A stretch of 64,000 nt of DNA from Bacteroidota bacterium (GTDB taxonomy: Bacteria > Bacteroidota > Bacteroidia > Flavobacteriales > Weeksellaceae), in the NCBI GenBank assembly GCA_018266955.1, contig JAFDZI010000031.1, positions 1-64,000 of the forward strand, read 5' to 3'. The notes beneath the pieces were generated by a model, which searched no databases, was not told where the DNA came from, and saw only the letters and a program-made list of their open reading frames with translations. Of this stretch, positions 44,331 through 63,427 are shown in pieces (positions within the stretch are counted from its first letter, which is position 1; every line of letters begins with the position of its first letter). A program made the translations under genes and the position numbers.

Positions 44331-45092
44331 TCAATCATAATAGGTAATCTTCCTTATACTTTTCGAATATTTTTTTCCGTTTTTGAATACCATTTTCTGT
44401 ATCCAATTTCCAGATGAGTCATAGAAATATTCGTAGGTAAATTCGTTCTCTGATTTTTTTAGACCATTCGAGAAAAATTCGATGGTAGTGTTATCGTTAA
44501 GTTCTGTTTGTGTTAGTATGCTTCCATTTTCATAGTAAGTATAGGTAAATTCATACTTTTTGCTTATTTCTCCTTTTTTATAGTTGGTTTGCGAAATAAC
44601 GTTTCCATGGTCGTCATATACAAATTCTGTTACTCGACTTTCTCCGTTCTTTTCTCCGAAATATTTTATAAGAAGATCATCTTTCAGAACAGCTGTAAAA
44701 GATTTGTTGGACTTCTTTCCATCATCCGTAATATCTGTGCTTATAAAAACTGAATCGTTACTGTATCTGAATGTCATTATGCTTTCGGTAACGAGTCTGT
44801 TTTTATCAAAATTCCGAAACCATACTTTCTCCTGCCTATCCTGTGAATCATACGAAAATGCTGTGCTAGATTTTCTGTCTGCACTAATTTCTTCTTTCTT
44901 CAAAATTTTCCCTTTCAGACTGAATTCCAATATTGTGGTTTCTCTATTTTTTTTCTTTTTGGCAACGTAGTTTTCCTCAATTAATTTTACCCTTCCCTGC
45001 AAAAGAAAATCTTTCCAATTCTCGGGTTGATTGAGTTGAGCTTGAGAAAAAGCAAAGAATATTAGAAAAGAGACAGTGAAAAATAATCTCAT
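44331..45092 (-). CDS. Secreted YD-repeat-like protein
   Basis: A 253-residue protein with signal peptide (cleavage near FSQA, residue 18) and repeated Y-D-x-x-G-N/D motifs (FSYDSQDRQEK, FVYDDHGNVISQ, YFYDSSGNWIQK), the pattern of RHS/YD beta-repeats. Single small repeat protein, not a full toxin. Last gene of a short minus-strand group; ends in TGA. Confidence 0.65.
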   Translation of the reverse strand: MRLFFTVSFLIFFAFSQAQLNQPENWKDFLLQGRVKLIEENYVAKKKKNRETTILEFSLKGKILKKEEISADRKSSTAFSYDSQDRQEKVWFRNFDKNRLVTESIMTFRYSNDSVFISTDITDDGKKSNKSFTAVLKDDLLIKYFGEKNGESRVTEFVYDDHGNVISQTNYKKGEISKKYEFTYTYYENGSILTQTELNDNTTIEFFSNGLKKSENEFTYEYFYDSSGNWIQKMVFKNGKKYSKSIRKITYYD

Positions 45093-45103
45093 AGATGGAG
45101 TTT

Positions 45104-45709
45104 TTAATTGTTAAACTTGGAAATTAATTCAATACTTTTTTGTATTTCTTCGGGAGTTAGATAATTTTTTCTTTTATAATTTTTGTATTCTTCCGAGGCG
45201 TTAGAATGATTTAAAACAAAATCTGACCAAGTCTTTAAATAAAGTCCCAAACCTCTTTGTATGGTTAATTGGTCTATAAATGTTTCGTAAGATCTGATAT
45301 CTCCTTTGGTTAAATAGGTTCTTCCAATTTTCATTAATTTAAAAAAAGATTTATTTTCGTAATCTAGAATATGAGCGAACTCATGACCAAACAAACCAAT
45401 TTTTGCATCTAAAGGAACTTCGGAAACGAGAATTCCAAAATTATTTTCAATAGTTGTGTCAACAAATATTTTATATTTTCTTTTTTTAGAAAATAAAAAA
45501 CCAATAACAGGTCTTGTTTCCATGGTGGTTTTTGTATTTGCATAGATCACTTCAATATCTATATTTTTTAGCTCTGGGAAATATTGAAGCGCAATGTAAG
45601 CAGCTTCTTTTAAATTGTTAGGGATAATCAGTTTATCATAAGAAGATAATTTTTCTTGACCATAAAAATTGGTATTGATTAAAAATAATGCGAGCAAAAT
45701 AATTTTCAT
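45104..45709 (-). CDS. Secreted HExxH metallopeptidase-like protein
   Basis: A 201-residue exported protein (signal peptide ends near FYGQ, about residue 17) with zinc-peptidase motif GHEFAHILDYEN (about 109). No other catalytic landmark. Its ATG overlaps the stop of the upstream symporter-like gene, so they are co-translated. Confidence 0.65.
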   Translation of the reverse strand: MKIILLALFLINTNFYGQEKLSSYDKLIIPNNLKEAAYIALQYFPELKNIDIEVIYANTKTTMETRPVIGFLFSKKRKYKIFVDTTIENNFGILVSEVPLDAKIGLFGHEFAHILDYENKSFFKLMKIGRTYLTKGDIRSYETFIDQLTIQRGLGLYLKTWSDFVLNHSNASEEYKNYKRKNYLTPEEIQKSIELISKFNN

Positions 45710-46569
45710 TTAGTTTGTAATTTTGAGATAATGAAACAGAATAATAAGGCTGTCCAAAATGAAAACATCGCATACACTAAAGATACTTTCCCAAATTGTT
45801 CATTATGAAGTAATGTTCCTGAAATAAGAAATGCCATAGTGGTATTGTGAACGGCACTTTCTACAGAAAGAGAAATCTCATTCTTTACTCCGAGTTTGAA
45901 CAATTTGGACATTAAAAATCCAGTTGAGAAGCATACTACATTTAAAATTAATGCGAAAGGGAGTATTTCGAAAATTTCTGTATCGGTTATTCCTGCTTTG
46001 CCATTATCTCCAAGAAATTTGAGCAAAAAAACGAATCCTAAAAGAATCATAAGAACAGGTTTTGCATACTTCCCGATTTTTTCAGCAAGGGATTTATTTT
46101 TTGTTCTTAGCAAGATACCAAGAGAAGCTGGTATAGCGGTCAGAACAAAAATTTCTACCATAGTATCTTTAAAAGGGAGATGAAATTCTGTGCTACTACC
46201 ATAATAAATATGTAGTGCAAAGTTGACAATTAGTGGTATGGTAAAAATTGTTAAAATAGCATTGATTGTTGTAAGGATAATGGAAAGAGCGGTATTCCCT
46301 TTGAAAAGATAGGTAATAAATCCTGCTGTGGTTCCTCCTGGGCTGGTTGCCAAAATAATCATTCCTATTTTGATGTAATTAGGGGTATTTATAATACTGC
46401 ATATTATAAAAGCAATTGATGGTAACAGAATCATTTGCGAAAACAAAGCAACAAGTAATGCCTTAGGCGATGACAATACATTAGCTGTATCTTTCCAATT
46501 AAGAGAAACGCCAATACCAAACATAATCAACACCAAAACTGAAGCAACAAGTAGGTCAATTATTCCCAT
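45706..46569 (-). CDS. Bile acid:sodium symporter family protein
   Basis: A 287-residue membrane protein with about nine helices. The segment ATSPGGTTAGFITYLFKGN (about 73) matches the BASS/SBF motif PGG near the sodium-binding crossover. It ends at TGA that overlaps the next ATG (ATGA), showing UGA used as a stop in the accessory region. Substrate unknown. Confidence 0.8.
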   Translation of the reverse strand: MGIIDLLVASVLVLIMFGIGVSLNWKDTANVLSSPKALLVALFSQMILLPSIAFIICSIINTPNYIKIGMIILATSPGGTTAGFITYLFKGNTALSIILTTINAILTIFTIPLIVNFALHIYYGSSTEFHLPFKDTMVEIFVLTAIPASLGILLRTKNKSLAEKIGKYAKPVLMILLGFVFLLKFLGDNGKAGITDTEIFEILPFALILNVVCFSTGFLMSKLFKLGVKNEISLSVESAVHNTTMAFLISGTLLHNEQFGKVSLVYAMFSFWTALLFCFIISKLQTK

Positions 46570-47583: not shown

Positions 47584-47979
47584 CTAAAGAGGCTTTATAC
47601 TTAACTCGCTCTCAGCAACTACATATGCCATACTGAAATTTAAGCTATGTGTGATGGTTATATGCCAAAAGTTAATTCCTAATTTTTCAGAAATCTTTAA
47701 AACATTACCTTGCAGTTGTGCGTATGGTTTACCACTTTCAGATTGTAAAATCTGAACATCGGACAAAGCAATCCCATCTTCCATTCCTGTTCCTAGACAT
47801 TTAAGAATTGCTTCTTTAGCTGCAAATCTCCCACAAAGGAATTTTATTGAATTTGACCATGAGTAAATTTCTAATTCTTTTTTTGAAAAAATTTTTTTTT
47901 GAACAGCGGAGTTTGAATCCCATTTTAATTTTTGTGCCTCTTGATGCTCAACAATATCACACCCTATCCCTATAATCAT
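47584..47979 (-). CDS. acpS: Holo-acyl-carrier-protein synthase
   Basis: A 131-residue phosphopantetheinyl transferase: GIGCDIVEHQEA at the N terminus, RFAAKEAILKCLGTG in the centre (Mg and CoA binding) and ITHSLNFSMAYVVAE at the end, all AcpS signatures. It is the last gene of an operon whose first gene encodes an acyl-carrier-like protein, so it probably arms that protein rather than serving fatty-acid synthesis in general. TAATG overlap with the upstream gene. Ends in TAG. Confidence 0.88.
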   Translation of the reverse strand: MIIGIGCDIVEHQEAQKLKWDSNSAVQKKIFSKKELEIYSWSNSIKFLCGRFAAKEAILKCLGTGMEDGIALSDVQILQSESGKPYAQLQGNVLKISEKLGINFWHITITHSLNFSMAYVVAESELSIKPL

Positions 47980-48569
47980 TAGTTTAAAGAATATCTTATT
48001 TCTCTATTAATTGCATTAAAATGAACAATTCCTCCATTGTTTTTTGTAAGCAGTCTAAAAATTTCATACGCTTTCAAAATAGCAAATTCCCATTCTTTTG
48101 TTGTTCTAATTTTAACCTCGAAATTCTCGGTCATCTCTTTTATAATTCTCAGCGTCGTTCTAGAAACATTAGAAGTATTTGCAAAGAATTTTTTTCTCTT
48201 CGCCTCATTAAAAATAACCATTGAAACAGCTTCTTCAGTAATGATAGCTCTTGCTCCATCTTCAATTCTATCCAACAATTCATTGCTTTTTCTTTTTCTT
48301 TTCATCATGGCTCTTGCACACGGTGACCAACCTAAAAGTGTTGCAAAGGTATAATGAAAAATATCATGATAACGATAAAAATCATTTATATAAGAGTTAT
48401 CGTTAATCACATCTCCAAGTTGTCTTTCATTGTTGAGAACAACTCTTAATTCATTTTTTACATCATTTCCAACTTCAGTAAAAGATAAAGAGAATTCCCT
48501 TGGAAATTGTTCTTGTGGCATAAATCCTTCATCAAAGAATTGCGTGGAATTAATTTTATTTTGTATCAT
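47979..48569 (-). CDS. MazG-like nucleotide pyrophosphohydrolase
   Basis: A 196-residue all-helical protein. The segment FTEVGNDVKNELRVVLNNER (about 30) and INDFYRYHDIFHYTFATLLG (about 62) look like the acidic helices of the MazG/all-alpha NTP pyrophosphohydrolase superfamily. Would remove pyrophosphate from a (possibly modified) nucleoside triphosphate. Overlaps the gene upstream by 14 bases. Confidence 0.55.
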   Translation of the reverse strand: MIQNKINSTQFFDEGFMPQEQFPREFSLSFTEVGNDVKNELRVVLNNERQLGDVINDNSYINDFYRYHDIFHYTFATLLGWSPCARAMMKRKRKSNELLDRIEDGARAIITEEAVSMVIFNEAKRKKFFANTSNVSRTTLRIIKEMTENFEVKIRTTKEWEFAILKAYEIFRLLTKNNGGIVHFNAINREIRYSLN

Positions 48570-49341
48570 TTTGTTTGGTGTTTTCTTTTAAAATAGTATT
48601 AACTCTTTCTGTAACAATGCTATCTATATTAGATTTTTTAATAATACTGTCAACAGATTTTTCAATTCTTTTTTCTTTCAAACCAGCATAATATCCATCA
48701 TTGAATTTGGATGAATCAGTAAATAATTTTAGGAACATCGCAATACCTAAAGTCATAAGTATTCCCAAAGCCCAAAAAACATTTTTCAGATGAGACTCAT
48801 TTGTTTTTATTCTTTCAAGCAAAACATTTGGAGAAGCAAGTTTTCCACTTAAAGCACTTATGTTGTCAGCAGAAATTTCCATTTGACCTTTATGCTTTCC
48901 ATTGTAAGGATCAGAAGAACTTGTTAAGTTACTAAACCAAATCATAAAATATGGGCTTCCTTTATCCAAGATAATCGTAGCAGGGCCTGCATTGTAAACT
49001 GAGAAAATAATTTTTCCTTTGAATCCAGGATCAACATGAAATCCGGAAACATTAATTAGTCCTTTTATCTTTTGACTGAATTTTATAGAAATAAAAGCAA
49101 TTATATTATCTGGTATTGTTACAAACTCATCTGTAATCAAAAGAGCAAATTGTCCTGGTTTTATTACTACTTGAGTATTTTTCTCATCTAATACTTCTTT
49201 TTTTCCTTTTTTAGAATCTGTTAGATATGCTTCGCCACCTAATGATAATTCATAAGCAACATTGTTTATTCTTTTTGAATCGAATTTGTCAATACAATTT
49301 GGAAGAATAGTTTCTAGTTCTCTTGTTCCTAAGTATGCCAT
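48556..49341 (-). CDS. dCTP deaminase/dUTPase-fold protein with membrane anchor
   Basis: A 261-residue protein. Residues ~1-150 resemble dCTP deaminase (VAYELSLG, PGQFALLITDEFVTIP, INVSGFHVDPGFKGKI), but the catalytic R-S-S segment is replaced by SIKFSQKIKG, so standard deaminase activity is doubtful. A helix at about 189-208 (FWALGILMTLGIAMFLKLF) anchors it in the membrane, and a charged coiled tail follows. The anchor is unusual. In the same operon as thymidylate-synthase-like and MazG-like genes. Confidence 0.65.
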   Translation of the reverse strand: MAYLGTRELETILPNCIDKFDSKRINNVAYELSLGGEAYLTDSKKGKKEVLDEKNTQVVIKPGQFALLITDEFVTIPDNIIAFISIKFSQKIKGLINVSGFHVDPGFKGKIIFSVYNAGPATIILDKGSPYFMIWFSNLTSSSDPYNGKHKGQMEISADNISALSGKLASPNVLLERIKTNESHLKNVFWALGILMTLGIAMFLKLFTDSSKFNDGYYAGLKEKRIEKSVDSIIKKSNIDSIVTERVNTILKENTKQNDTK

Positions 49342-49387
49342 ATTTCAGTATATCAGTTTGTTAATGACGTTATAAAATTACAATTTT

Positions 49388-50434
49388 TTATTTATTGAAT
49401 GTAGTTGTTAATAATTCCTTACCAGTGATAATTCTATCATTAATACCCCATTTCGGCGGAAACCAGTAATTGATGGGTTTTGCGTTAGTTTTGTACACTT
49501 GTTTTATTCTCACTCTATCACTCGTTCCCTTAATTTCAGGATGCATTACTCTTGCATATTTATCAGTTTCACAAAAAAGATTTTGACAATCAATAAGCTG
49601 TAGTCTTCTGCCCCAAAGATTTTTAAAAGATAATCCAAGTCTTTCAAATTCTTTTTCTTGCCTATCTGTCATTAATTTAATAATTTCCACATTACTAAGA
49701 CCAGCGGTATCACTAAAACATTTACTAATGCCACCAATAGCACCTGGTCCCGGAACTACAAATTCTGATTCTGAAAAATCTATAATTGTTGAATAATTAA
49801 TATCGATTAACAACTGGTAAGCCAAAAAATCCCCTAGTCCGGGAAAGCTTTTGATGAGTTCAAATGCTTGCTGCATCTTTTTGGCTTCCATAAGTCTTTC
49901 AACGGTATTGTTTTCCAATATATATTCAATCAGTTTTAAATGATTTGAATGTTTTCGGATATGACCAAAACGAGACTTGCAAGATGGCATTATATAAGCT
50001 GCAGAATATATAGTTTTTTTATTTGTAAGAACCTTATTTAATATTTTGTCGTAAAGTTTAAAATCAAAATCTTCATATACGAGGTGACCTAGTTCAGAGG
50101 TCAGTAATTCCCATGTTTCTATTTTATTAAATAATTTAAAAAGTAATATTCTAAAAAGAATCTCTTTTGGTTCGGAAGGTAGATCATCATTATAAATTAC
50201 ATTTCTTATAAGATATTGGCTAACTCTATCCGCAGCACGATAGGTATTTGTAAATTTATATTTACTTATGACAGGATCTTTAGTCCAAGGGAATTCTTTA
50301 CCATTGATTCTATTAAAGAACGTTTCTTGTCTCAATACCGCAAATTTCCAATAACTATCATAAACTTCTGTTACTTTTGCAGGTGCTAAAGGCTTATATA
50401 TTGTAAAACCAGATGTTTTTTTATCCTTGTTCAT
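49388..50434 (-). CDS. Thymine-hypermodification-like enzyme (HMUDK/aGPT-PPlase family)
   Basis: A 348-residue protein with a helix-hairpin-helix centre (IKSFPGLGDFLAYQLLIDIN, about 196-215) and conserved VVPGPGAIGGISKCF. It resembles the helical family annotated as 5-hydroxymethyl-dU DNA kinase helical domain or alpha-glutamyl/putrescinyl-thymine pyrophosphorylase, known from phage thymine hypermodification. I infer the family from memory of its motifs; the location beside a thymidylate-synthase-like gene supports it. Overlaps that gene by 14 bases. Confidence 0.55.
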   Translation of the reverse strand: MNKDKKTSGFTIYKPLAPAKVTEVYDSYWKFAVLRQETFFNRINGKEFPWTKDPVISKYKFTNTYRAADRVSQYLIRNVIYNDDLPSEPKEILFRILLFKLFNKIETWELLTSELGHLVYEDFDFKLYDKILNKVLTNKKTIYSAAYIMPSCKSRFGHIRKHSNHLKLIEYILENNTVERLMEAKKMQQAFELIKSFPGLGDFLAYQLLIDINYSTIIDFSESEFVVPGPGAIGGISKCFSDTAGLSNVEIIKLMTDRQEKEFERLGLSFKNLWGRRLQLIDCQNLFCETDKYARVMHPEIKGTSDRVRIKQVYKTNAKPINYWFPPKWGINDRIITGKELLTTTFNK

Positions 50435-51179
50435 TTCCTTCGTCTGGTTTTAATTTATTTAATAATCTTTTAGCTTCTGTTTTGGTGATTTCCAATTGTT
50501 CTACACCTATAAAACAGTTAAATCGTTCGAGCTCCAATCCACTTTCCCTTGCGATGAATTTACCCAGATTAATTAACCCGAGCCAGTTTCCATAAGCTTT
50601 TTGATATAAATACTGTACAGCATAAAAGCTATTAATTATTAAACCACCAGATTCTGATTTATAAAAAGTCACATGCTGTAAACACGGAAATCCTTGAAAC
50701 ATTTTATTGGTATGATCTCTTAAAGGGTCAAAAGTGGAGGCTTGCAATTTTGACCTTCTTTTTATAGTCGAATTTTGCAGAGAAGAAATAATAATTTCAA
50801 GTTGGTTCACTTGATGAGACTCTCCATAAGATATCAATCTTTCAAAGTAAGTGCCTTTAGCATTTCTTGTATCTAATTTTTTGATTCTTTTTGAACTGCC
50901 AATATAAGATTTATACAATTTTTTACGATCATAATCAAAATATTCATAAAGAGAGTTAGGAAAAATTGTTTCGGAAACAGTTTCAATAGAATTAAAATTA
51001 TTTCTTTTTAGATTAAGATTCAATTCATTTTTAATAATTTTATTTTCGGTAAAATCGGTAAGTGTTAATATTAAAGGGGAGATTTCTTTTCCAGAATAAT
51101 CTACTACCTTCTCAAAAATTTCGAGCCAAGCTGTTGATAAGTTTAAATTATCTCCTTGTATTAAAGTGGGAATATTCAT
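50421..51179 (-). CDS. Thymidylate-synthase-like (nucleotide hydroxymethylase-like) enzyme
   Basis: A 252-residue protein of TS fold. The catalytic Cys lies in GFPCLQHVTFY (about 164-174). The following SFYAVQYLYQKAYGNWLGLI corresponds to the TS substrate-binding RSxDxxxGxxxN region, though the Arg-Ser-x-Asp is altered. That divergence is typical of phage/bacterial dUMP or dCMP hydroxymethylases and other base-modifying TS homologues rather than housekeeping ThyA. Second of the nucleotide enzymes in the operon. Confidence 0.72.
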   Translation of the reverse strand: MNIPTLIQGDNLNLSTAWLEIFEKVVDYSGKEISPLILTLTDFTENKIIKNELNLNLKRNNFNSIETVSETIFPNSLYEYFDYDRKKLYKSYIGSSKRIKKLDTRNAKGTYFERLISYGESHQVNQLEIIISSLQNSTIKRRSKLQASTFDPLRDHTNKMFQGFPCLQHVTFYKSESGGLIINSFYAVQYLYQKAYGNWLGLINLGKFIARESGLELERFNCFIGVEQLEITKTEAKRLLNKLKPDEGNEQG

Positions 51180-51191
51180 TTGTTGTTTTTA

Positions 51192-52040
51192 TTAGTTTTC
51201 AAGATGTCTATAAGTTGCAAATCCAACATAATCTTTAGGCTGTATCCTTACAAAATAACTCATATCTCCAGATGCTGAGGTTATAGAGGTAATTCCAGTT
51301 TTTTTTGCAGAAAATATTGAAGACTTTTTAGTATTTATTTTTTTTTCTAAATAATCTTCATCAACAATATAACCTTCAGGTAGAATAAGATAATTGGATA
51401 TTTCTAAATCAATTGGCATAGGATCGCTTAAGCCATCAATAATCTTAAAATGAGATTTATCTCCCACATTACCAAATTCATTTTTAAAAATTTTAGAAGG
51501 AGTCACTTTAGACAATTCTATAGATTTAAATTCATTTATTAAACTATAAATTCTACAGTGGGTTACTAAAGATTGGTAACCCACTCCAAATACAGAACTG
51601 ATAATATAAAAATCCAAAGGAGATGCAGTTGAGGGATTGATATTACGCTTCAAAAATTCCGACTCGACTCCAGCAATCGGCATTAATAGGTTTGCGGAAA
51701 AGGTATCTACTAATTTTTCATCATCGTCCTTAAATTGATTATTTATGGTATCTTCATTAAGAATATCTAATTTAAGTCCATGGTTAAAAACATGATGCCC
51801 AAGCTCATGTCCACATGTAAAAACACGTCGAGCAAATGGACGCTTGTTCGAAATTAAAATTCTATTGAAATTAGGCTTACTAATATAGAAGCCTTCCATA
51901 TTTATATCAACAAATTGTACATCAACATCGAGTTTTTCGCAAACATCGTAAATATTTATTGGTTGATACAAATCGTAACCTAGCTTTAAACGGATTACAG
52001 AGGCTTTTTTAATTCCTTGAATGTATAAATTATTCATCAT
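51192..52040 (-). CDS. ImmA/IrrE-family metallo-endopeptidase
   Basis: A 282-residue protein with zinc motif TCGHELGHHVFNHG (about 75-88, HExxH) preceded by ISNKRPFARRVF, and a downstream acidic helix FKDDDEKLVDTFSANLLMP, the classical ImmA/IrrE signature. Such peptidases cut a partner XRE repressor; the XRE gene lies 9 bases upstream in the operon. Confidence 0.88.
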   Translation of the reverse strand: MMNNLYIQGIKKASVIRLKLGYDLYQPINIYDVCEKLDVDVQFVDINMEGFYISKPNFNRILISNKRPFARRVFTCGHELGHHVFNHGLKLDILNEDTINNQFKDDDEKLVDTFSANLLMPIAGVESEFLKRNINPSTASPLDFYIISSVFGVGYQSLVTHCRIYSLINEFKSIELSKVTPSKIFKNEFGNVGDKSHFKIIDGLSDPMPIDLEISNYLILPEGYIVDEDYLEKKINTKKSSIFSAKKTGITSITSASGDMSYFVRIQPKDYVGFATYRHLEN

Positions 52041-52049
52041 CCCGTTGTT

Positions 52050-52385
52050 TTACTTTTTTGTAAATACTTTAATGAGGTCAATGAACTTATTCCTATCACC
52101 AACATTCATTTTGTTTAGCTCTCTTGCAACCATTCGCAATTCTTCATCTATTTCAATTTCTTCATCATGTAATATCCAAGATGTACTTACTTTATAGAGC
52201 TCGCTAAATTGAATAATTTCTTCAGCACTTACTTTTCGTTTTCCTGATTCTATTTCAGAAATAGCAGGTCTTTGCAAGTTTAACATTTTTGCTGCATTTT
52301 CTTGAGATAAACCAGATAAAATCCTTGCTTCTTTAAGACGATTGGCGATTTTTTCTCTTTCTGAGATTTGTTCTTTATTTTCCAT
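52050..52385 (-). CDS. XRE-family repressor, partner of ImmA/IrrE
   Basis: A 111-residue protein with helix-turn-helix at about 12-66 (RLKEARILSGLSQENAAKML ... ISEIESGKRKVS) and a helical C-terminal tail. Overlaps the acyl-carrier-like gene by 11 bases. Likely binds the paired GTAAG...CTTAC sites around the operon promoter. Confidence 0.87.
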   Translation of the reverse strand: MENKEQISEREKIANRLKEARILSGLSQENAAKMLNLQRPAISEIESGKRKVSAEEIIQFSELYKVSTSWILHDEEIEIDEELRMVARELNKMNVGDRNKFIDLIKVFTKK

Positions 52386-52871: not shown

Positions 52872-53723
52872 TTAGTACATATTTACTTTCTCCCCGTCAA
52901 ACAGCCACCAATCCTCAAAAACATTTTGTTTAATCTCCTCTAAAGATTTAAATAAGAAGTGAAATTTCGCTTCTGTAAAACGTTCGTCTTCAAGAAGTCT
53001 CTTCATCGCCATTTGCTTATACACCTCGAGTTCGAAGATACAGAGAATACGGCTTCCATAATCTAGCCCAAACATTCTGCTCGGTTGCCCTACTGACAAT
53101 GCCCTCAAATGATGAAATAAAGACTTATGAACACGACTTGTATCATCTCCGTTATACATTTCAATGGCATACAACTCTTTTCTATTCGGTGTTTGAAGCA
53201 TACAAAGTGCATCAGCAATCAAATAATCGTTTTCAGAGATTTGAATGAACGATTCCGCTTTGTAACCCTTCTTCTTTCCCGTAGAAACCTTATCAAAATA
53301 GGTCAAGAATAGTAGCATTTCACAATCATCAATTTTAGAAATTCCTTTGTGTAAAGCGATTTGCACATTAATCGTGTTCATTCTATGGAAGTAATCCTTT
53401 TGATAAAATTGACCTTCATTTTTCGGAAACCTGACAACCTCTTCTCTCAAATAATCTTTAACAATTTCAGCACCATGAGCTTTTAAAAAATGTACATTTT
53501 CGAGTTTCCCTATTGCAGGATGAACTCCGAATGCAATAGAACCCACTAACGGATCTTTCCGAAGTCTGAGTTCTGCAATTTGCTTGTTGAGATTCGCTCT
53601 GTCAGACATAATTCCGAGACCGAGCAACTGCCCTGCTGTTAAATATTTGTAACGAGCCAAAGCTAAAAGGATTTTTTCCTGTGAGGGAGAAAGTGTTTGA
53701 AAGAATAATCTTTTAGTAACCAT
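52872..53723 (-). CDS. Replication-relaxation family protein
   Basis: A 283-residue protein with an N-terminal winged helix (QEKILLALARYKYLTAGQLL) and a C-terminal domain with IADALCML and ELYAIEMYNGDD, resembling the D...ExD/E pattern of plasmid replication-relaxation/mobilisation proteins. Lies next to the TraG-like ATPase on the same strand, fitting a mobilisation or replication role. Confidence 0.7.
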   Translation of the reverse strand: MVTKRLFFQTLSPSQEKILLALARYKYLTAGQLLGLGIMSDRANLNKQIAELRLRKDPLVGSIAFGVHPAIGKLENVHFLKAHGAEIVKDYLREEVVRFPKNEGQFYQKDYFHRMNTINVQIALHKGISKIDDCEMLLFLTYFDKVSTGKKKGYKAESFIQISENDYLIADALCMLQTPNRKELYAIEMYNGDDTSRVHKSLFHHLRALSVGQPSRMFGLDYGSRILCIFELEVYKQMAMKRLLEDERFTEAKFHFLFKSLEEIKQNVFEDWWLFDGEKVNMY

Positions 53724-53788: not shown

Positions 53789-55699
53789 TTAGAGATGAAA
53801 CTTAGGCTTAATACTTCCGCTGGACTCTGTGGAATTTTGAGGTACGGATTCAGAATTTTCTTTTGCTGGAAGAATTGTAGCTTCGGAATCCGATGCCGGA
53901 TTTACAGTTTCATTAGTTGTATCTGCTGAAGTCGATTTGGCTTTTGAAGGAATCAAAGTTGGCGCATGAACTGGATTTGATGTAGGTTCATGCGGCGGAT
54001 TCTGACTTTTATTTTGAAACTGCGTTTGTGTTTGAATTGGATTTACATTGATGATGTCTCTGTAAATTTCCGATTCAGACAACAAATAGGCTTTTAGTTT
54101 TTTCAGTTCTTCTTTGTTACAAAAGTATCTTTTCTGCTGTCTAATTAGAAAATCGGGACTTTTAATTTTTATGGCCGGAAAATGATCGTACTTTAAGTAG
54201 AACTCATAAGGTAACAAACTCTGCATTGCTGAATAAGAAACTCCAAAATCCCCTGCCAATTCTTTAAGTGCAGGCAAGCCGTTGATTCCTGCTAATTTAA
54301 CAGCTGAGTTATTCAAAACTGAATTCTTTAATGATAATGGGATTTGACCGACACTTTGTGTTCCAACAATCAAACGCAATTTGTACTTCCTGGCCTCAGA
54401 AAATATGGTTTGAATACTTCCGCTTTCTGTCGTGAAATTGTGAAATTCATCGATAAACAGATAACAGGGCTTTCTTGAATGTTCGGATTCGAACGCCCTC
54501 TGAAATACAATGCTCAGAATGGTTGCGGAAACAAATCTCCCGAGTGCTCTGCTCGTATCTTCTCCCAATTTTCCTTTGGATAAATTAAACAGGATTATCC
54601 TGCCTTCCTGCATTCCTTTCTTTAGGTCGATATTGCTTTTTCCGTTCATCATGTGGTAGAACATCATATTGTTTTGGAGGTGTTGCAATCTTGTATAGAT
54701 TGCCAGTTTGGTAGGAGCATATTTTTTACTAAGGAATGCTGTTTCAAAAAACTGGCGGTAGACCTGAAATGAAGATTTTTTGCCCAATTCCACCCATTTT
54801 GCATTTTGGGTGTCATCCATAAATATTTGCAAGTCGGATAGCCCACATCCTCCTCTTTCAAGCAAAACTGCTAAACACGGTTTCAGCAGCGCTTCCATTT
54901 GAAGCGACATTCCTGCTTCGGGAATTAATTCCGAAAACGCTTTGGCGAATTGCTGGGACATCACATCAATTAAAAACGGCTCGGAGACTCTCCGCCAAAA
55001 TGGGTTGATGCAGGGAATTTTTTCATTTTCCAATTGCGGATCGATGTACCAAACACGGTCGGGCTTTTGAAGATTGATACGGAATCCTAATAAGCTCTCG
55101 GATAGGTCTCCATGAGGATCCAAAAGAATTATTGAGTGTTGCTGTTTCAATTGGGATTGATGCTGAATTTGGTAAGCAATCGCTTTCATAAATTCCGTCT
55201 TTCCGGAACCTGTCCTGCCGCTAATAAAGCAATGCCTGTCTAAAGCGGAAACGGGAAATGGGACAGGCTTTGGAGCAAAAAATAATGCGTGTAGCGAAGG
55301 TAGACAAAGTGAAAGAAGTTTTTGATAGTCGTGTTCATCATCGCTGGTAAAAGAAGATAAAATTTTCGGGTGTTTCAATAAAAGATTCCAATATTCCAAA
55401 GCAGGCGAAACGCATACTGCCCTCTCCAATTTTTCTTTGCTTGTCGCTTTCTTGGTTCTCATTTCTTCAAATTTCTTGAAGGTCAGAAATCGTTTTTGAA
55501 GTTCTTTGCGGTAATGAATTGAATTTCTATCCAGTCGGGAGAGGTTTTTATCGATTGCTTTTATTCGTTCTGAAATTAAAGCATCCCGACCCGAAGGATG
55601 TCCGGCAAGTAAATAACTTCCTGCAAGTAGATAAGGTTCTTGGTTTCTGATCTTCCATAGAAAGGAAGTTTTATTCCAGAATTGAATTGTTGAATTCAT
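53789..55699 (-). CDS. TraG/VirD4-like conjugative coupling ATPase
   Basis: A 636-residue P-loop ATPase with Walker A ISGRTGSGKTEFMKA (about 160) and Walker B CYLFIDEFHNF (about 412), then GTQSVGQIP, as in DUF87/VirD4/TraG coupling proteins. The N-terminal part (about 1-140) has no obvious membrane helices; the last ~80 residues are a Pro/Ser/Thr-rich disordered tail. It probably feeds plasmid DNA to a type IV secretion channel encoded elsewhere. Standard code throughout. Confidence 0.8.
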   Translation of the reverse strand: MNSTIQFWNKTSFLWKIRNQEPYLLAGSYLLAGHPSGRDALISERIKAIDKNLSRLDRNSIHYRKELQKRFLTFKKFEEMRTKKATSKEKLERAVCVSPALEYWNLLLKHPKILSSFTSDDEHDYQKLLSLCLPSLHALFFAPKPVPFPVSALDRHCFISGRTGSGKTEFMKAIAYQIQHQSQLKQQHSIILLDPHGDLSESLLGFRINLQKPDRVWYIDPQLENEKIPCINPFWRRVSEPFLIDVMSQQFAKAFSELIPEAGMSLQMEALLKPCLAVLLERGGCGLSDLQIFMDDTQNAKWVELGKKSSFQVYRQFFETAFLSKKYAPTKLAIYTRLQHLQNNMMFYHMMNGKSNIDLKKGMQEGRIILFNLSKGKLGEDTSRALGRFVSATILSIVFQRAFESEHSRKPCYLFIDEFHNFTTESGSIQTIFSEARKYKLRLIVGTQSVGQIPLSLKNSVLNNSAVKLAGINGLPALKELAGDFGVSYSAMQSLLPYEFYLKYDHFPAIKIKSPDFLIRQQKRYFCNKEELKKLKAYLLSESEIYRDIINVNPIQTQTQFQNKSQNPPHEPTSNPVHAPTLIPSKAKSTSADTTNETVNPASDSEATILPAKENSESVPQNSTESSGSIKPKFHL

Positions 55700-56742: not shown

Positions 56743-56976
56743 ATGGAAAACAAAATCAACAAAACCGTCAATCTAGACTTGACGACTATCGACAGTAACA
56801 TCTTCGCCATTTTTGGAGCGTTCTCCAGACAGGCAAGACGTGAGAAGTGGACGCAACAAGAAATTGATGCCGTCCTCGAAGAAGCCAAAAGCGGAGATTA
56901 TGATCATGCGATTGCTACCATCTGCGAGTATTGTGACCCTGAAGACGATTCTAACTCTGAAAACGAAGAAGACTAA
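56743..56976 (+). CDS. Small plasmid protein, function unknown
   Basis: A 77-residue acidic protein (FAIFGAFSRQARREKWTQQE near the middle, ending in a Glu/Asp tail). Its TAA overlaps the ATG of the next gene (TAATG). It begins a compact plus-strand run of small genes. Confidence 0.7.
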   Translation: MENKINKTVNLDLTTIDSNIFAIFGAFSRQARREKWTQQEIDAVLEEAKSGDYDHAIATICEYCDPEDDSNSENEED

Positions 56977-57581
56977 TGGGAACAAGAAATTTAACCGTGG
57001 TGGTACAAAACCAAGAAGTGAAAGTTGCTCAATATGGGCAGTATGACGGATTCCCCGATTCCCTTGGAGTAAAATTATTAAAATTCTTTAGCAATCCTGA
57101 GAACACCGAAAAATTAAAAGAAATCCTTCCGAAAGTACGTCTTTGGAATGAAAAAGACCAAAAGCTACAGGACGAATTTCTGGAATCAATCGGTTGTACC
57201 AACGGAATACTCAACGACAAGCAAAAGGAACAATTCAAAATGAAGTATCCTTTTCGCTATCGTGAACGCTACGGAAAATTAACCGAAGGGCAAATCTTGG
57301 AAATATTGCTGGAGTTTCATCATCTTGATGAAATCGCAACCATCGATGCTTACGATTTTGCTTCCGACAGTCTGTTCTGTGAATGGGCGTATGTGATTGA
57401 CTACGATAAAAATGCTTTTGAAGTGTACAAAGGTCTCAACACCTCGGGAATTTCAGAAGAAGACCGCTTCTTTCCGCTTTATGACGGAGAAAACGATTAT
57501 TATCCTGTCAAAATCATTGCCTCATTTCCTTTGGATCAACTTCCCGATGAAAACGAATTTCTTTTTCAATGCTCAACGTAG
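56976..57581 (+). CDS. Conserved mobile-element protein (MGTRNLT family)
   Basis: A 201-residue protein starting MGTRNLTVVVQNQEVKVAQY. Proteins with this opening and a following QYDGFPDSLG are widespread on phages and plasmids, without known function. Arg is encoded only by CGT/CGC here. Ends in TAG. Confidence 0.75.
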   Translation: MGTRNLTVVVQNQEVKVAQYGQYDGFPDSLGVKLLKFFSNPENTEKLKEILPKVRLWNEKDQKLQDEFLESIGCTNGILNDKQKEQFKMKYPFRYRERYGKLTEGQILEILLEFHHLDEIATIDAYDFASDSLFCEWAYVIDYDKNAFEVYKGLNTSGISEEDRFFPLYDGENDYYPVKIIASFPLDQLPDENEFLFQCST

Positions 57582-57660: not shown

Positions 57661-58245
57661 ATGAACAAAAACAAAAACCGCCTACTGGTAATGTGCTTTA
57701 TGAAAATGCTTCAGCAAAGAATCGAAAGAGACAAAGTGGAAACCCTAAGTCCTATATTCGGTAACATCTTAAGTAAAGAAGAGCTTCAAAACATTTTGAA
57801 GTGGCTGTACTTGGATAAAGTGCCTGAACACTACGATTTGAAAACGATGGACAGTCAGGATTTGCTTGAAGCCATCGGAGATGACATTCATATCCTTTCG
57901 TATTCCATAGAAAAATGGAAAAAGGAACTGGAAGAGAAAATCACGCCACAGAAAGTCTATGAGGTACTTTGCCAGCTCCAACTCGAAACCCATTATCTGA
58001 TGACCAAAATTTTGGCAGATTGGGACGAGTACGACCACAGCAACTTCAAGGCACTCTGCCGAAAGGCGGGAACTCCTCAACCCTTATTTGCTGTATTTGA
58101 ATCTTCTGTACTAGAAGAGGACAAATATATTTCTGTTCCTCTTTCTAAATATTATGCTACCGAGTGGGAAGCAACATCTAAAAAATCACTTCTCATTTCG
58201 GAAGAACAGTTTGAGGAACATCAGCTCCAGATCCTAAGCCTGTAA
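57661..58245 (+). CDS. Plasmid protein A of a paralogous pair
   Basis: A 194-residue soluble protein. Residues ~35-90 (KEELQNILKWLYLDKVPEHY ... LLEAIGDDIHILSYSIEKW) match residues of the protein encoded at 59477 (KELIEII ... LLQLIGDDFKIISYVMSRW), so the two are paralogues. Unknown function. Confidence 0.7.
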   Translation: MNKNKNRLLVMCFMKMLQQRIERDKVETLSPIFGNILSKEELQNILKWLYLDKVPEHYDLKTMDSQDLLEAIGDDIHILSYSIEKWKKELEEKITPQKVYEVLCQLQLETHYLMTKILADWDEYDHSNFKALCRKAGTPQPLFAVFESSVLEEDKYISVPLSKYYATEWEATSKKSLLISEEQFEEHQLQILSL

Positions 58246-58275: not shown

Positions 58276-58710
58276 ATGAAACAATCAATCTTAGAATTTT
58301 ATTCTAATCTGGACAAAGCCAGAGACAGAGCTTTATGGCTGGAGTTTGAGTACAGAAATATTCCCAAGCATTTTATGGTATTTGATGGGCCTGAAAACAA
58401 TTTCGCCGTTGCCGATTTAGAAACGGCAGAAGAAATGGAAATGACGCATCATTACTACTCTCTTCCTGAAAATTATCAACATCTTTCTTACGGAGATTTG
58501 AAAGGAATTTCGGGCGACCCAGAGATGTTAGGACACTGGGAAAATATCCTTGGAAAGTTCTCGGTAATGGAAGGCGAATTACTTCGCTTTATCCTGAAAT
58601 ATCAGGTTCCTCTAGATAAAATTATTCGTTACGAACTTGGGTGTAGAGGATTTGACCATAACAATCAATGGATTGGATTTAATGAATCTGAAAAACTATG
58701 GCAACAATAA
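58276..58710 (+). CDS. Uncharacterised plasmid protein
   Basis: A 144-residue acidic protein containing MVFDGPENNFAVADLETAEE and a C-terminal CRGFDHNNQWIGF. Small acidic plasmid proteins near a leading region are often anti-restriction proteins, but I cannot show that here. Confidence 0.65.
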   Translation: MKQSILEFYSNLDKARDRALWLEFEYRNIPKHFMVFDGPENNFAVADLETAEEMEMTHHYYSLPENYQHLSYGDLKGISGDPEMLGHWENILGKFSVMEGELLRFILKYQVPLDKIIRYELGCRGFDHNNQWIGFNESEKLWQQ

Positions 58711-59476: not shown

Positions 59477-60079
59477 ATGAACGAAAACAGAACGGCACTC
59501 TTGAAAATATTCTCAGCAGTGCTAAAGGACAGAGTAAAATCTGAACCTCAGTATCAATCCATCAGTACGGAAATGGTCAAACATTTTTCCCGAAAAGAAT
59601 TGATTGAAATCATTACCCACAACTTCGAGGGCGAAGTTCCATCGGAATTTAACCTCGTGGAAATGGAAAATAATGAACTTTTGCAATTGATTGGAGATGA
59701 TTTCAAAATCATTTCTTATGTGATGAGCCGTTGGAGCAAGGAAGTTTCACTACTTCCAACCCTCCAAGAATGGATGCATTCTAAAGTTCATTCATCTCCT
59801 GAAAAGGAAATAGAAGAAAACTTGGAATCAAATTCATCAGAAACTTCATCAGAAAATTTGGAGAATCCTCCAACAAATGAAATGATTTCTGAACATCCAG
59901 ATTCTACTTCTGAAAATTCTGATAAAACCAATTCGGAATCTCCTAAACCTTCGGATGTATCATCTGAAGTTAAAAAATTTGAAGAGAAACTGAATTTCAA
60001 TCCTGATTCTAAACCTGCTTCAGAAAAACCGCATTTCGGTAGGAAGCAGGAGGACAAGAAAACTGAAAAAAGCAAGTAA
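59477..60079 (+). CDS. Plasmid protein A2 with acidic Ser/Pro-rich tail
   Basis: A 200-residue protein. The N-terminal ~95 residues are paralogous to the protein at 57661; the C-terminal half is disordered, rich in Ser, Glu and Pro (ENLESNSSETSSENLENPP) and ends in a Lys-rich patch. Uses CGA for Arg at a position where its paralogue has Glu/Lys, consistent with the standard code. Preceded by the flavobacterial-style intergenic phrase tctaacctctaatatctaaa. Confidence 0.68.
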   Translation: MNENRTALLKIFSAVLKDRVKSEPQYQSISTEMVKHFSRKELIEIITHNFEGEVPSEFNLVEMENNELLQLIGDDFKIISYVMSRWSKEVSLLPTLQEWMHSKVHSSPEKEIEENLESNSSETSSENLENPPTNEMISEHPDSTSENSDKTNSESPKPSDVSSEVKKFEEKLNFNPDSKPASEKPHFGRKQEDKKTEKSK

Positions 60080-60134: not shown

Positions 60135-60168
60135 AAATAGCCCAAGTTTTTTACTCGGGCTATTTTAT
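60135..60168 (+). terminator. Rho-independent terminator
   Basis: AAATAGCCC (60135-60143) pairs with GGGCTATTT (60157-60165), followed by T-rich sequence. It separates the standard-code genes from the recoded methylase. Confidence 0.8.
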
Positions 60169-60289
60169 TTTCTTAAGCAACACTCCCCTGCAATAGATAC
60201 ATTTACTTTATTTACAAAAAGTGAAAATGAGCCATTCCTCTGAAAATAAAATAATTACCAAAAACAAAACTCCCCTGCTCAAAGCAAAA

Positions 60290-61081
60290 ATGAAAACCCC
60301 GATTACGTATTACGGTGGGAAACAGAATTTAGTAAAAGAACTTCTTTGATTAATTCCTCCTCATAAAATCTATGTAGAACCTTATTTTTGAGGCGGAGCA
60401 CTGTTTCGGGCTAAAGAGCCTTCTTCTTCTGAAATTATCAATGACACCAACATGAATGTGGTTAATTTCTACGAAGTTTTGAAGAAAAACTACAAAGCAC
60501 TGCACGAAAAAATCGAAGCCACTCTTCACAGTAGGGAAACTTACAAAAAAGCGCTTTTCATTTACGAAACTCCCCGGCTTTTTGCGGACAATCCTGTAAT
60601 AAGAGCACGAGCTTTCTATGTATCCTGCAATCAATGATTTTGCAGTCGTGTTGGGAGTTGGTGATATGATAAGGGAAAAAGATGTGCTTCGGTTTTTCAG
60701 AATAAAATAGAAAACTTTAAAGAAGAAATGAGCATTCGTCTTTCTTACACGCAAATCGAACAAAACTCGGCTCATCTTGTCATTCAGTCGAGGGATCATG
60801 AACATGCCTTCTTTTACTGTGATCCTCCTTATATCGGGACGAATCAATGACATTATGGAGGTTATTACGAAGACGATTTCATCAGAGACCTCACGGTATT
60901 ATCACAAATCAAGTGAAAGTTTTTATTGAGCAATTTTCCATCTAAAATACTCGATAGGTTTGTAAAGGAGCATCAATGGTATGTAAAAACCTTTGACCAA
61001 CCTTTGTCAGCCTCTCACAACAGCAAGAAGAACTTAAACAAAAGAAAAACGGAAGTGTTGGTGGCGAATTATCCGATATAA
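60290..61081 (+). CDS. DNA adenine methylase (Dam type), UGA read as Gly
   Basis: A 263-residue D12-class methylase if six in-frame UGAs are decoded (60347, 60389, 60635, 60662, 60848, 60914). Motif I is TYYGGKQNLV, the catalytic motif CDPPYIG. The UGAs fall in KELL-G-LIPPH, EPYF-G-GGALF, CNQ-G-FCS, GSW-G-YDK, TNQ-G-HYGGY and QIK-G-KFLL; at least five of these are strongly conserved glycines. CGG at 60407 and 60575 and CGA at 60608 occur where relatives have Trp (VFWAKEP, PWLF, RAWAF). No other frame disruption and a TAA stop. An ATG at 60227 would add 21 residues. Confidence 0.85.
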
Positions 61082-61153: not shown

Positions 61154-61177
61154 TTTACATTAAAAAACAAAAATGAA

Positions 61178-61324
61178 ATGAACACCTCAAAACCAAAATA
61201 CAACAATCAAAGAAAAAATGTCGTGATGCGTAAGATCAAACCAAGAATGAAACAGAGAGTTTTCAAAAACGAAGAAATCCCCATCCATAAAATCAGAAAA
61301 GATTACGAAAAATTTAAAGTATGA
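61178..61324 (+). CDS. Small basic protein
   Basis: A 48-residue Lys/Arg-rich protein (RKNVVMRKIKPRMKQRVF) with stop TGA at 61322 sharing bases with an ATG at 61321 (ATGA). If UGA were Gly it would continue for 13 codons to TAA. The ATG at 61173 is in another frame and would run through UGAs into the methylase downstream; I consider that reading less likely. Confidence 0.5.
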   Translation: MNTSKPKYNNQRKNVVMRKIKPRMKQRVFKNEEIPIHKIRKDYEKFKV

Positions 61325-62345
61325 CCGAAGCTTAAAGCATGATTACCCTCCTCCAAATAATCTAAAAGTATTCTGAGCCTTTGTTGGTGGTGGCGGTTCT
61401 ACAATGGGATACAAACTCGCAGGATTTCAACATTTGGGTGGTGTAGAAATAGATGGCAGAATGGCAAAAATTTACCAAACCAACCATTCCCCTGAACATT
61501 TTTATCATGAAGACATCAGAGATTTTAACCAAAGAACTGATTTACCAAAAGAACTCTACGAATTAGATATTTTGGATGGCTCTCCTCCTTGCAGTGCCTT
61601 CTCGATGTCCTGAAAACGTGAGGAATACCGGGGAAGAGAAAAAGTATTTAAAGAATGACAGAAAAAACAAATTTTGGATGAACTTGTGTTTATATTCTGT
61701 GATATGGTAGAAAAGCTTATGCCCAAAGTTGTTGTAATGGAAAATGTTCCGGGACTCGTTGCCGGAAGAGCAAAAAAATATGCCATTGAAGTCTATGAGA
61801 GACTTAATTTGCTATGATATCAAGTCCAAATCTTCAGACTCAATTCAGCTACAATGGGTGTTCCCCAAGCTCGTGAACGTATTTTCTTTATTGCAAGAAA
61901 AAAGAGCTTGGAGCTCCCCCAATTAATTTTGGACTTCAATGAATCCCCTGTATATTTTGGAACAATTGCCGACAGAAATTCTACCACCCATCCTCCGCTC
62001 CGACCTTCCATTGAAAAAAGACGACCGTTTGTAGAATACGGAGATCAGAATTTAAAGTTTGCCGATGCAAAATACAGAAATTTAAATACCTTCAATGCGT
62101 TCTTCAGTACCTATATTTTGTACGATGATATTGTTGCTCCTACATTGACTTCAAGTGGAGCATGAGTATATTACCCCGAAAAACGCAATCTTAATGATAC
62201 CGAATATATTCGTATGAGTAGTTTTCCAAACGATTTTGATTTTTGCAACATATCAACCCGTTATGTTTGCGGAATGAGCGTTCCTCCATTGATGACCGCT
62301 AGAATTGCAAATGAAATAAGAAAACAATGGTTTTCAATAATTTAG
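61321..62345 (+). CDS. DNA cytosine methylase (Dcm type), UGA read as Gly, frameshifted start
   Basis: A C5-methylase of ~340 residues if five UGAs are decoded (61374, 61611, 61656, 61815, 62163). Motif I is FVGGGGSTMGYKLAGF, PC motif DGSPPCSAFSMS, ENV motif VVMENVPGLV, then GVPQARERIFFI. UGAs give KVF-G-AF, SMS-G-KRE, FKE-G-QKK, NLL-G-YQV and SGA-G-VYY; SMSGKRE and FKEGQ are conserved glycines. CGG at 61629 lies in EEY-x-G, where Trp is typical. ATG at 61321 opens MTEA, but one base is missing near 61333 to reach the conserved frame. Ends in TAG. Confidence 0.75.
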
Positions 62346-62905
62346 CAATCTGAAATGTACCAATGTTTAATTGAAATACATATTCAAAAAATTGTTAAAC
62401 TGTTACATTATTCGATTGTTACATTAATTCATACTCCTCTCCTCTACAACATTAACAAGGCTTTTCACAGCCTTTATAAAGATTACATTCACCGAAAAAT
62501 AAGATAAATAATTGTTTTTCTGAAACAATCAACAAGGTGGTTGTCAAAGGTTGATACACTCCTCTGCCAAACCTTAACAAGGCATTGTCAAAGTCTGCCA
62601 CAACTTTATCAATCCCATGACAAACCTTCTACAATGAATGTCAAGGCATTGTTAAAGTAAATCACTTGAAAAAGCCTTTTCGATGCTTATAAATCCGTAA
62701 GGAATTAAAAAGGGATGTTATAACCTTTAACAATCCCCTGACAAATGTTTGAAGAAGTTTTGTAAAACCTATGACAAAGATTTAATCATCTATTGTCAAA
62801 CGTAGAGCAAAGTAACTAAAAACAAGCATTCAATTGATTGTATTCTGTATGATAACCAAAAGTTATCGTGAAAAAAGCGAGTATTTATCCTATAAAAATA
62901 ATTCT
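62346..62905. repeat. Cluster of TTGTCAAA / TTTGACAA-type repeats (centromere-like)
   Basis: A 560-base gene-free stretch with at least eight copies of a TTGTCAAA-like word in both orientations, for example TTGTCAAAG near 62541 and 62586, TTGTTAAAG near 62650, TTGTCAAAC near 62793, and TGACAAA near 62618, 62739 and 62772; several extend to CAAGGCATTGTCAAAG. It directly precedes the HTH protein gene. The pattern suggests a partition (parS-like) or operator region for that protein. Confidence 0.65.
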
Positions 62906-63427
62906 ATGGAAATTTCAAAATCAGAGGCAGAAAGACTGCTGGGTGTAAGTTCCACCACCTTGTATAATCGGGCAAACAAAATGAATATCAAATTCATCAA
63001 TAAAGTAGACTCCAAAGGAAAGAGCAGTTACCTTGCCCAATCCGATTTGGAGAAAATGGCAGAAGCAATGGGTAAGACATTGAAAACCGAATCCGCCCCT
63101 GAAAAAGAAAATCCGAAAACGGAAAGCAGAGGAGCAGAGGAGTGAGAAGCCCAAGAATTTGTACAGGAAAAATTTATGCTTCAACTCAAAATCAAGGAAC
63201 AGGAAGAGGAGATCAAGTCCAACAACCAAATCATTGAATTTTATAAAGAAAATAATTCGCAATTGCTGATGAACCAACAGGAAGCTAAAAATCAAATCAC
63301 TACTATGTACTGAGAAATGCTTGGAATTTCGAAAAAAGCCACGACCTACTATATTATCTCTATTGCCGTATCGGTTGTGTTACTCCTGTTTGTTGTTCTT
63401 GTTGCCACAGGAAACCTGAAATTTTAA
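62906..63427 (+). CDS. HTH, coiled-coil, membrane-tail protein (Par-like), UGA read as Gly
   Basis: A 173-residue protein if UGAs at 63143 and 63311 are decoded. N-terminal HTH (ISKSEAERLLGVSSTTLYN, about 3-60), central coiled coil (LQLKIKEQEEEIKSNNQ) and a C-terminal membrane helix (YYIISIAVSVVLLLFVVLVA). The layout recalls the single-protein plasmid partition protein Par of staphylococcal pSK1 (HTH plus coiled coil). UGAs fall at AEE-G-EAQEF and TMY-G-EMLG. CGG near 62968 (LYN-x-ANK) could be Trp or Arg. ATG at 62906 begins the HTH; other in-frame starts lie upstream. Confidence 0.65.

Follow-up and report, generated by a model that had tools for sequence, protein, structure and literature searches.

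A different genetic code is usually regarded as a barrier to gene exchange. Among the bacteria that have one are the Absconditabacteria, tiny organisms thought to live on or eat other bacteria. The code published for this lineage (SR1) reads UGA as glycine and both CGA and CGG as tryptophan, and some Gracilibacteria read CGG as tryptophan (Shulgin & Eddy 2021, PMC8629427). Mobile DNA that possibly meets both alternative- and standard-code hosts is known from phages of Gracilibacteria and Absconditabacteria that use code 25 or are compatible with it, some of which match Bacteroidetes spacers; the dual-host phages mostly avoid TGA, with all of their genes readable in both codes (PMC10746230). 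Stop-recoding phages of standard hosts carry in-frame stops in selected genes and are taken to carry code-switching machinery (background in PMC10746230). Here we describe a mobile element comparable to each of these systems in a 64,000-nucleotide stretch (the window), comprising bases 1 to 64000 of a 91,070-base contig (C24) in a 2.45-Mb genome of the family Weeksellaceae, to which Chryseobacterium also belongs. Some of its genes, decoded independently, share the code of the Absconditabacteria (NCBI table 25 plus CGA/CGG=Trp), but whereas that code is used by the whole cell there, here it is confined to part of an element residing in standard-code flavobacteria. Unlike the dual-host phages, its genes are written, gene by gene, in mutually unreadable codes; unlike the stop-recoding phages, it reassigns the sense codons CGA and CGG as well, and no suppressor tRNA was found in or near it with ARAGORN and Rfam. 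Two codes coexist in one element, and both halves are maintained.

The recoded DNA adenine methylase gene (dam) is a single frame of 284 aa closed by TAA, with six in-frame TGA codons and no TAA or TAG, much as an original prediction made from the letters alone had described it; the 264 codons counted there fit not the whole frame but the later ATG at 60290, where homology to relatives begins and which is probably the conserved start. When aligned with 166 standard-coded relatives, the TGA at codon 55 faces glycine in all 166, those at codons 146, 208, and 230 face glycine in 127, 156, and 160 of them, respectively, and that at codon 137 falls in a column of 87 glycines and 75 serines, while codon 41 lies in a variable column that is mostly proline. 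Five of the six TGAs therefore occupy glycine columns, in agreement with the five or six predicted, and codon 41 alone departs from the expectation for the alignment check that had been proposed. The same columns exclude decoding of UGA as tryptophan or selenocysteine, both of which had been judged unfit beforehand. Three CGA/CGG codons of the frame lie at tryptophan columns of the recoded Dam family, and motif I (of the EPFxGGG type) and motif IV (DPPY) are complete only with TGA read as glycine. The profile of the recoded Dams matches DpnM (2dpm; 4.5e-16); the match to PF02086 is above the cut-off, and that to TIGR00571, at 87 bits, is under the subfamily cut-off of 114.85. An AlphaFold model of the recoded Dam, built on a seven-row alignment, was poor (predicted local distance difference test [pLDDT], 45) and was not used.

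Relatives of this Dam with three to eight in-frame TGAs were recovered from seven other genomes, all of one genus, among the 320 genomes of the family that were searched, and these include the isolates Chryseobacterium limigenitum SUR2 and C. candidae JC507. A scan of GTDB, whose results were mostly from Bacteroidota, added four metagenome-assembled genomes (MAGs) labeled Flavobacterium, Flavobacteriales, or Bacteroidetes. The carrier contigs are chromosomal, reach 3.46 Mb, and come from independent isolates and MAGs. Their common plan consists of mobX and traG on the minus strand, o1, o2, and o3, then o4 and dam, followed either by a C5-cytosine methylase gene (c5), a helix-turn-helix gene (hth), and a replication initiator gene (rep) or by one of two large serine recombinase genes; one copy has both c5 and a serine recombinase. 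The genes o1 to o4 are free of TGA in every copy that has them, whereas dam, c5, hth, rep, and both recombinases contain TGA in every copy; for traG and mobX, seven copies have the standard form and six the recoded one. The distribution of o2 is limited to module-bearing genomes (7 of the 320), where it lies beside nine recoded Dams. Two different copies each occur in genomes G077 (C17 and C34) and G064 (two places on C2), and at G147:C1:2283788-2284590 lies a degenerate remnant, made up of a recoded Dam with a frameshift and part of a serine recombinase. One Flavobacterium MAG carries a further, distant Dam that is likewise recoded, with six TGAs (L209:12116-12892); hence, more than one adenine methylase has been drawn into the recoded half. 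Separately, an Aquimarina Dam of the standard clade (L214:10001-10780) has one TGA at a glycine column, which may be an error, a recent mutation, or a first step of recoding.

Codon-by-codon comparison between copies aligns TGA with GGN and CGA/CGG with TGG, and in dam and c5 the latter two are never opposite an arginine spelled CGT, CGC, AGA, or AGG. A simplified Codetta-like statistic, applied to 14 recoded Dams against the 166 standard-coded relatives, decoded TGA as glycine with a log-likelihood difference (dlogL) of 281 over the second-best residue and CGA and CGG as tryptophan (148 and 128 over arginine, respectively); AGA, AGG, and CGT remain arginine, and the marginal deviations of ATG and CGC (n = 10), with a dlogL of about 3, are within noise. 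As a control, 15 held-out standard Dams decoded CGA and CGG as arginine. In recoded traG compared with standard traG, TGA is again glycine and tryptophan exceeds arginine by 34 and 17 at CGA and CGG, where the best single residue is leucine by a small margin; standard traG prefers arginine at these codons, as do o1 to o4 over tryptophan. Across 13 copies, the recoded genes, with about 18,970 codons, contain 301 TGAs but 5 TAA/TAG, and the standard genes of the same elements contain no TGA in about 14,460 codons. This ratio, the shifting of TGA among conserved glycine sites between Dam copies, and the retention of the frame in other species show that the TGA pattern in Dam is not due to chance. 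The three-codon code of the recoded genes is that published for the Absconditabacteria: genetic code 25, as first suggested, accounts for UGA, but the additional reading of CGA and CGG as tryptophan points to the Absconditabacteria variant rather than to table 25 alone. That reading, the TGA-bearing neighbors c5, hth, and rep, and the standard-code genes directly upstream had all been absent from the prediction. We also considered whether the standard genes are kept readable under either code by avoidance of TGA stops and CGA/CGG, an expectation that was not clearly borne out and was rejected: TGA closes 3 of 48, compared with 7 of 83 sampled host genes of the window genome, and CGA and CGG relative to arginine (CGR/Arg) stand at 0.113 in these genes versus 0.165 in host genes.

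Both sets of genes are under strong purifying selection. The ratio of nonsynonymous to synonymous substitution rates (dN/dS) between copies is 0.05 to 0.12 in most recoded gene pairs (0.22 in one hth pair) and about 0.06 to 0.29 in the standard genes, from which we conclude that both halves are functional; their dS values are comparable within an element pair, indicating that they travel together. In phylogenetic trees, the recoded Dams form one clade (100/96) nested within standard flavobacterial and phage Dams, and the recoded traG genes form one clade (93/92) nested within standard traG. The recoded Dam was thus derived from a standard-coded flavobacterial gene. Standard-coded traG-dam-o2 loci occur at seven places in other Flavobacteriales, six of them with o3 too (G347, G480, G504, G575, G636, and G331); these modules share the gene set and linkage of the element, and their Dams are 51 to 56% identical to the recoded one, but they are in the standard code throughout and, unlike with the element, no recoded c5, rep, or recombinase was found in them. 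The simplest history is that of a flavobacterial element whose genes were recoded one by one after a second type of host had been gained.

The carriers themselves do not use this code. All eight carrier genomes examined contain peptide chain release factor 2 (RF2), and no tRNA with the anticodon UCA was found among those read in the window genome (G000) or among the 55 Rfam tRNA matches of a near-complete carrier (G017). In the latter genome CGA and CGG are read by tRNA-Arg ACG and UCG, of which the UCG one has, by eye, the A20 expected of an arginine tRNA. The element encodes no tRNA, and when eight hosts were searched by pattern for UCA anticodon arms, the counts resembled those of the control, and none of the 30 hits checked of 57 was a tRNA. 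Therefore, neither tRNA-Gly(UCA) nor the loss of RF2, the marks of an Absconditabacteria-type cell, was seen in the flavobacterial carriers; decoding does not take place there, and the selection on dam must have operated in a different type of cell. The proposal that dam was maintained under a UGA=Gly code is in this respect both upheld, by the decoding, the glycine columns, and a dN/dS of about 0.1, and amended, as the code it named was incomplete and is not that of the carrier. A low-scoring ARAGORN call with the anticodon UUA (stop codon UAA) adjoins two tRNA-Val genes in the window genome (G000:C2:59909-59986) and is probably a degenerate copy.

Table 1. Features of the two-code element in the window and immediately beyond it
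Feature	Position	Strand	Code in this copy	Evidence or remark
mobX, family unassigned	52872..53723	-	Standard	TGA-bearing in six other copies
traG-like VirD4/HerA-type DNA-transport ATPase	53789..55699	-	Standard	PF10412 1.2e-9, PF01935 3.9e-9
o1	56976..57581	+	Standard	TGA in no copy; CGA/CGG opposite Arg in other copies
o2	57661..58245	+	Standard	Copy comparison
o3	58276..58710	+	Standard	Copy comparison
o4	59477..60079	+	Standard	Related to o2 in its N-terminal half
Intrinsic-terminator-like hairpin and T run	60137..60170	+		Between standard and recoded operons
Dam (D12-class N6-adenine methylase)	60227..61081	+	Recoded	6 TGA=Gly; PF02086 3e-22, TIGR00571 1.6e-24
C5-cytosine DNA methylase	61173..62345	+	Recoded	8 TGA in frame (5 in conserved part), 4 CGA/CGG
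Excisionase/HTH_17-like DNA-binding protein	62834..63427	+	Recoded	2 TGA; PF12728 1.9e-6, phrog_66 2.4e-6
Rep3-type replication initiator	C24:64055-65344, just outside window		Recoded	1 TGA; PF01051 1.4e-36

In the window copy, traG, mobX, and o1 to o4 contain no TGA (Table 1); the orthologous traG is recoded in six other copies, in which the P loop reads T*KTGSGKSE. With TGA as glycine and CGA/CGG as tryptophan, the C5 methylase reaches 150 bits against PF00145 (1.1e-43; gathering cut-off, 22), and the excisionase-like protein has a hydrophobic segment at its C terminus. The terminator-like hairpin between o4 and dam is present in eight of nine copies, suggesting that the standard and recoded halves are probably separate transcripts. 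No Pfam or NCBIfam match was obtained for mobX, and profiles of o2 and o3 recovered no solved relative; the AlphaFold model of o2 (pLDDT, 73; predicted template modeling score, 0.38) had no PDB match. The only conjugation protein recognized among the core genes is the traG-like ATPase, with no relaxase or type IV secretion system named there (flanking genes were only partly scanned). A PHROGs scan of ten core proteins matched methylase, integrase, excisionase, and replication families, and also traG to a terminase family (1.1e-9) and hth to a small-terminase family (1.4e-3). Adjoining the element on the minus strand (47587 to 52385) are genes for a 5-hydroxymethyldeoxyuridine (5-hmdU) DNA kinase (PF18723), MazG_C (PF18722), a dCTP deaminase-like protein, an M78/IrrE peptidase, and a helix-turn-helix protein, which look like a phage-type DNA hypermodification or defense island. 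An SBF-family transporter gene and its neighbors (44334 to 46569, minus strand; left flank in G017 and G028) adjoin the element in several hosts, which suggests standard-coded cargo of a larger island.

The presence of two codes in one element suggests that it moves between two types of cell with different readings of DNA. We consider it likely that this is a bilingual mobile element with two alternating hosts, flavobacteria and a partner of the Absconditabacteria type, and that every gene is kept in the code of whichever cell it serves. We infer that the second cell is a relative of the Absconditabacteria living on or near flavobacteria, that transfer is two-way, and that the methylases are protective. 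While resident in the flavobacterial chromosome, the element would act through o1 to o4, and in some copies through traG and mobX, in the standard code; Dam, the C5 methylase, the replication initiator, the excisionase-like protein, and the serine recombinase (elsewhere also traG and mobX) would be readable only inside a cell with the Absconditabacteria code. There, the methylases may mask incoming DNA from restriction, and the initiator or recombinase may replicate or integrate the element, so that each gene would drift to the code of the cell that needs its product. With somewhat less assurance, we favor a whole family of such shuttle elements in two phyla with incompatible codes, in which o1 to o4 would serve the flavobacterium or be effectors delivered by the epibiont, and in the epibiont the recoded genes would provide for replication and protection of the element. 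Co-occurrence of Absconditabacteria and Bacteroidetes has moderate support from one study of microbial mats (PMC8406219); in the open-licence literature we found no account of an element with two codes and none of a link between Absconditabacteria and Chryseobacterium.

Several observations weigh against an alternating element. No recoded copy was found outside flavobacteria in plasmid, phage, and IMG/VR collections, where searches with recoded c5, Dam, the recombinases, and rep gave only standard-coded relatives or none (Absconditabacteria genomes were outside the search scope); o1 to o4 received no assigned function in family, profile, and PDB searches; and nothing convincing was seen by way of attachment-site (att) repeats at the element. 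The recoded serine recombinase, moreover, cannot act in a flavobacterium and so would not account for entry into its chromosome; speculatively, recombinase protein might be delivered along with the DNA.

One of the alternatives is a variant of the alternating element and leaves its core intact: the second host would come not from the Absconditabacteria but from some unsampled lineage that shares their code. Some Gracilibacteria, as noted above, share part of the code, and the element was not sighted directly in Absconditabacteria here; but CGA besides CGG is read as tryptophan, which has been reported for the Absconditabacteria (PMC8629427), and we regard this variant as possible though unlikely. 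It is rather improbable that the flow is one-way, from an Absconditabacteria epibiont whose plasmid or prophage DNA lands again and again in the host chromosome and lies there inert, with no regular flavobacterial life. The recoded genes are indeed untranslatable in the flavobacterium, some copies, such as that in G147, are degenerate, and the recognized transfer machinery of the core is limited to the traG-like ATPase. However, o1 to o4, which are free of TGA, use CGA/CGG as arginine, and are under purifying selection, indicate that part of the element has been selected in a standard-code cell; the comparable dS of the two halves bespeaks joint travel, and standard-coded sister modules are present in flavobacteria. 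Far less credible is an expression switch in the flavobacterial host itself, based on conditional suppressors (a UGA-reading glycine tRNA and a CGA/CGG-reading tryptophan tRNA). Recoded replication and methylation genes in one operon would suit such a switch, and phages use stop recoding in this way (PMC10746230), but the tRNAs read in G000 and G017 and the vicinity of the element offer no UCA anticodon, RF2 is present, CGA/CGG is arginine in neighboring genes of the same element, and two simultaneous reassignments that match the code of a known lineage would be an unlikely coincidence. Finally, although TGA-interrupted frames usually mean decay, pseudogenes, sequencing error, and contamination are ruled out for practical purposes, as random decay was in the prediction, by the independent chromosomal copies in isolates and MAGs, a dN/dS of about 0.1, the 301:5 ratio, and the Gly/Trp specificity.

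An element alternating between two cell types thus appears to cross the code barrier by holding both codes in one molecule. At least one of its genes, traG, is seen in both spellings, and the tree places the recoded form inside the standard one. The element would serve as a DNA record of contacts of Chryseobacterium and Flavobacterium with Absconditabacteria-type cells, a partnership for which we found no earlier report, and the existence of cultured carrier strains makes it testable at the bench. More generally, genes interrupted by TGA and labeled pseudogenes may be messages that are intact but meant for a different cell.
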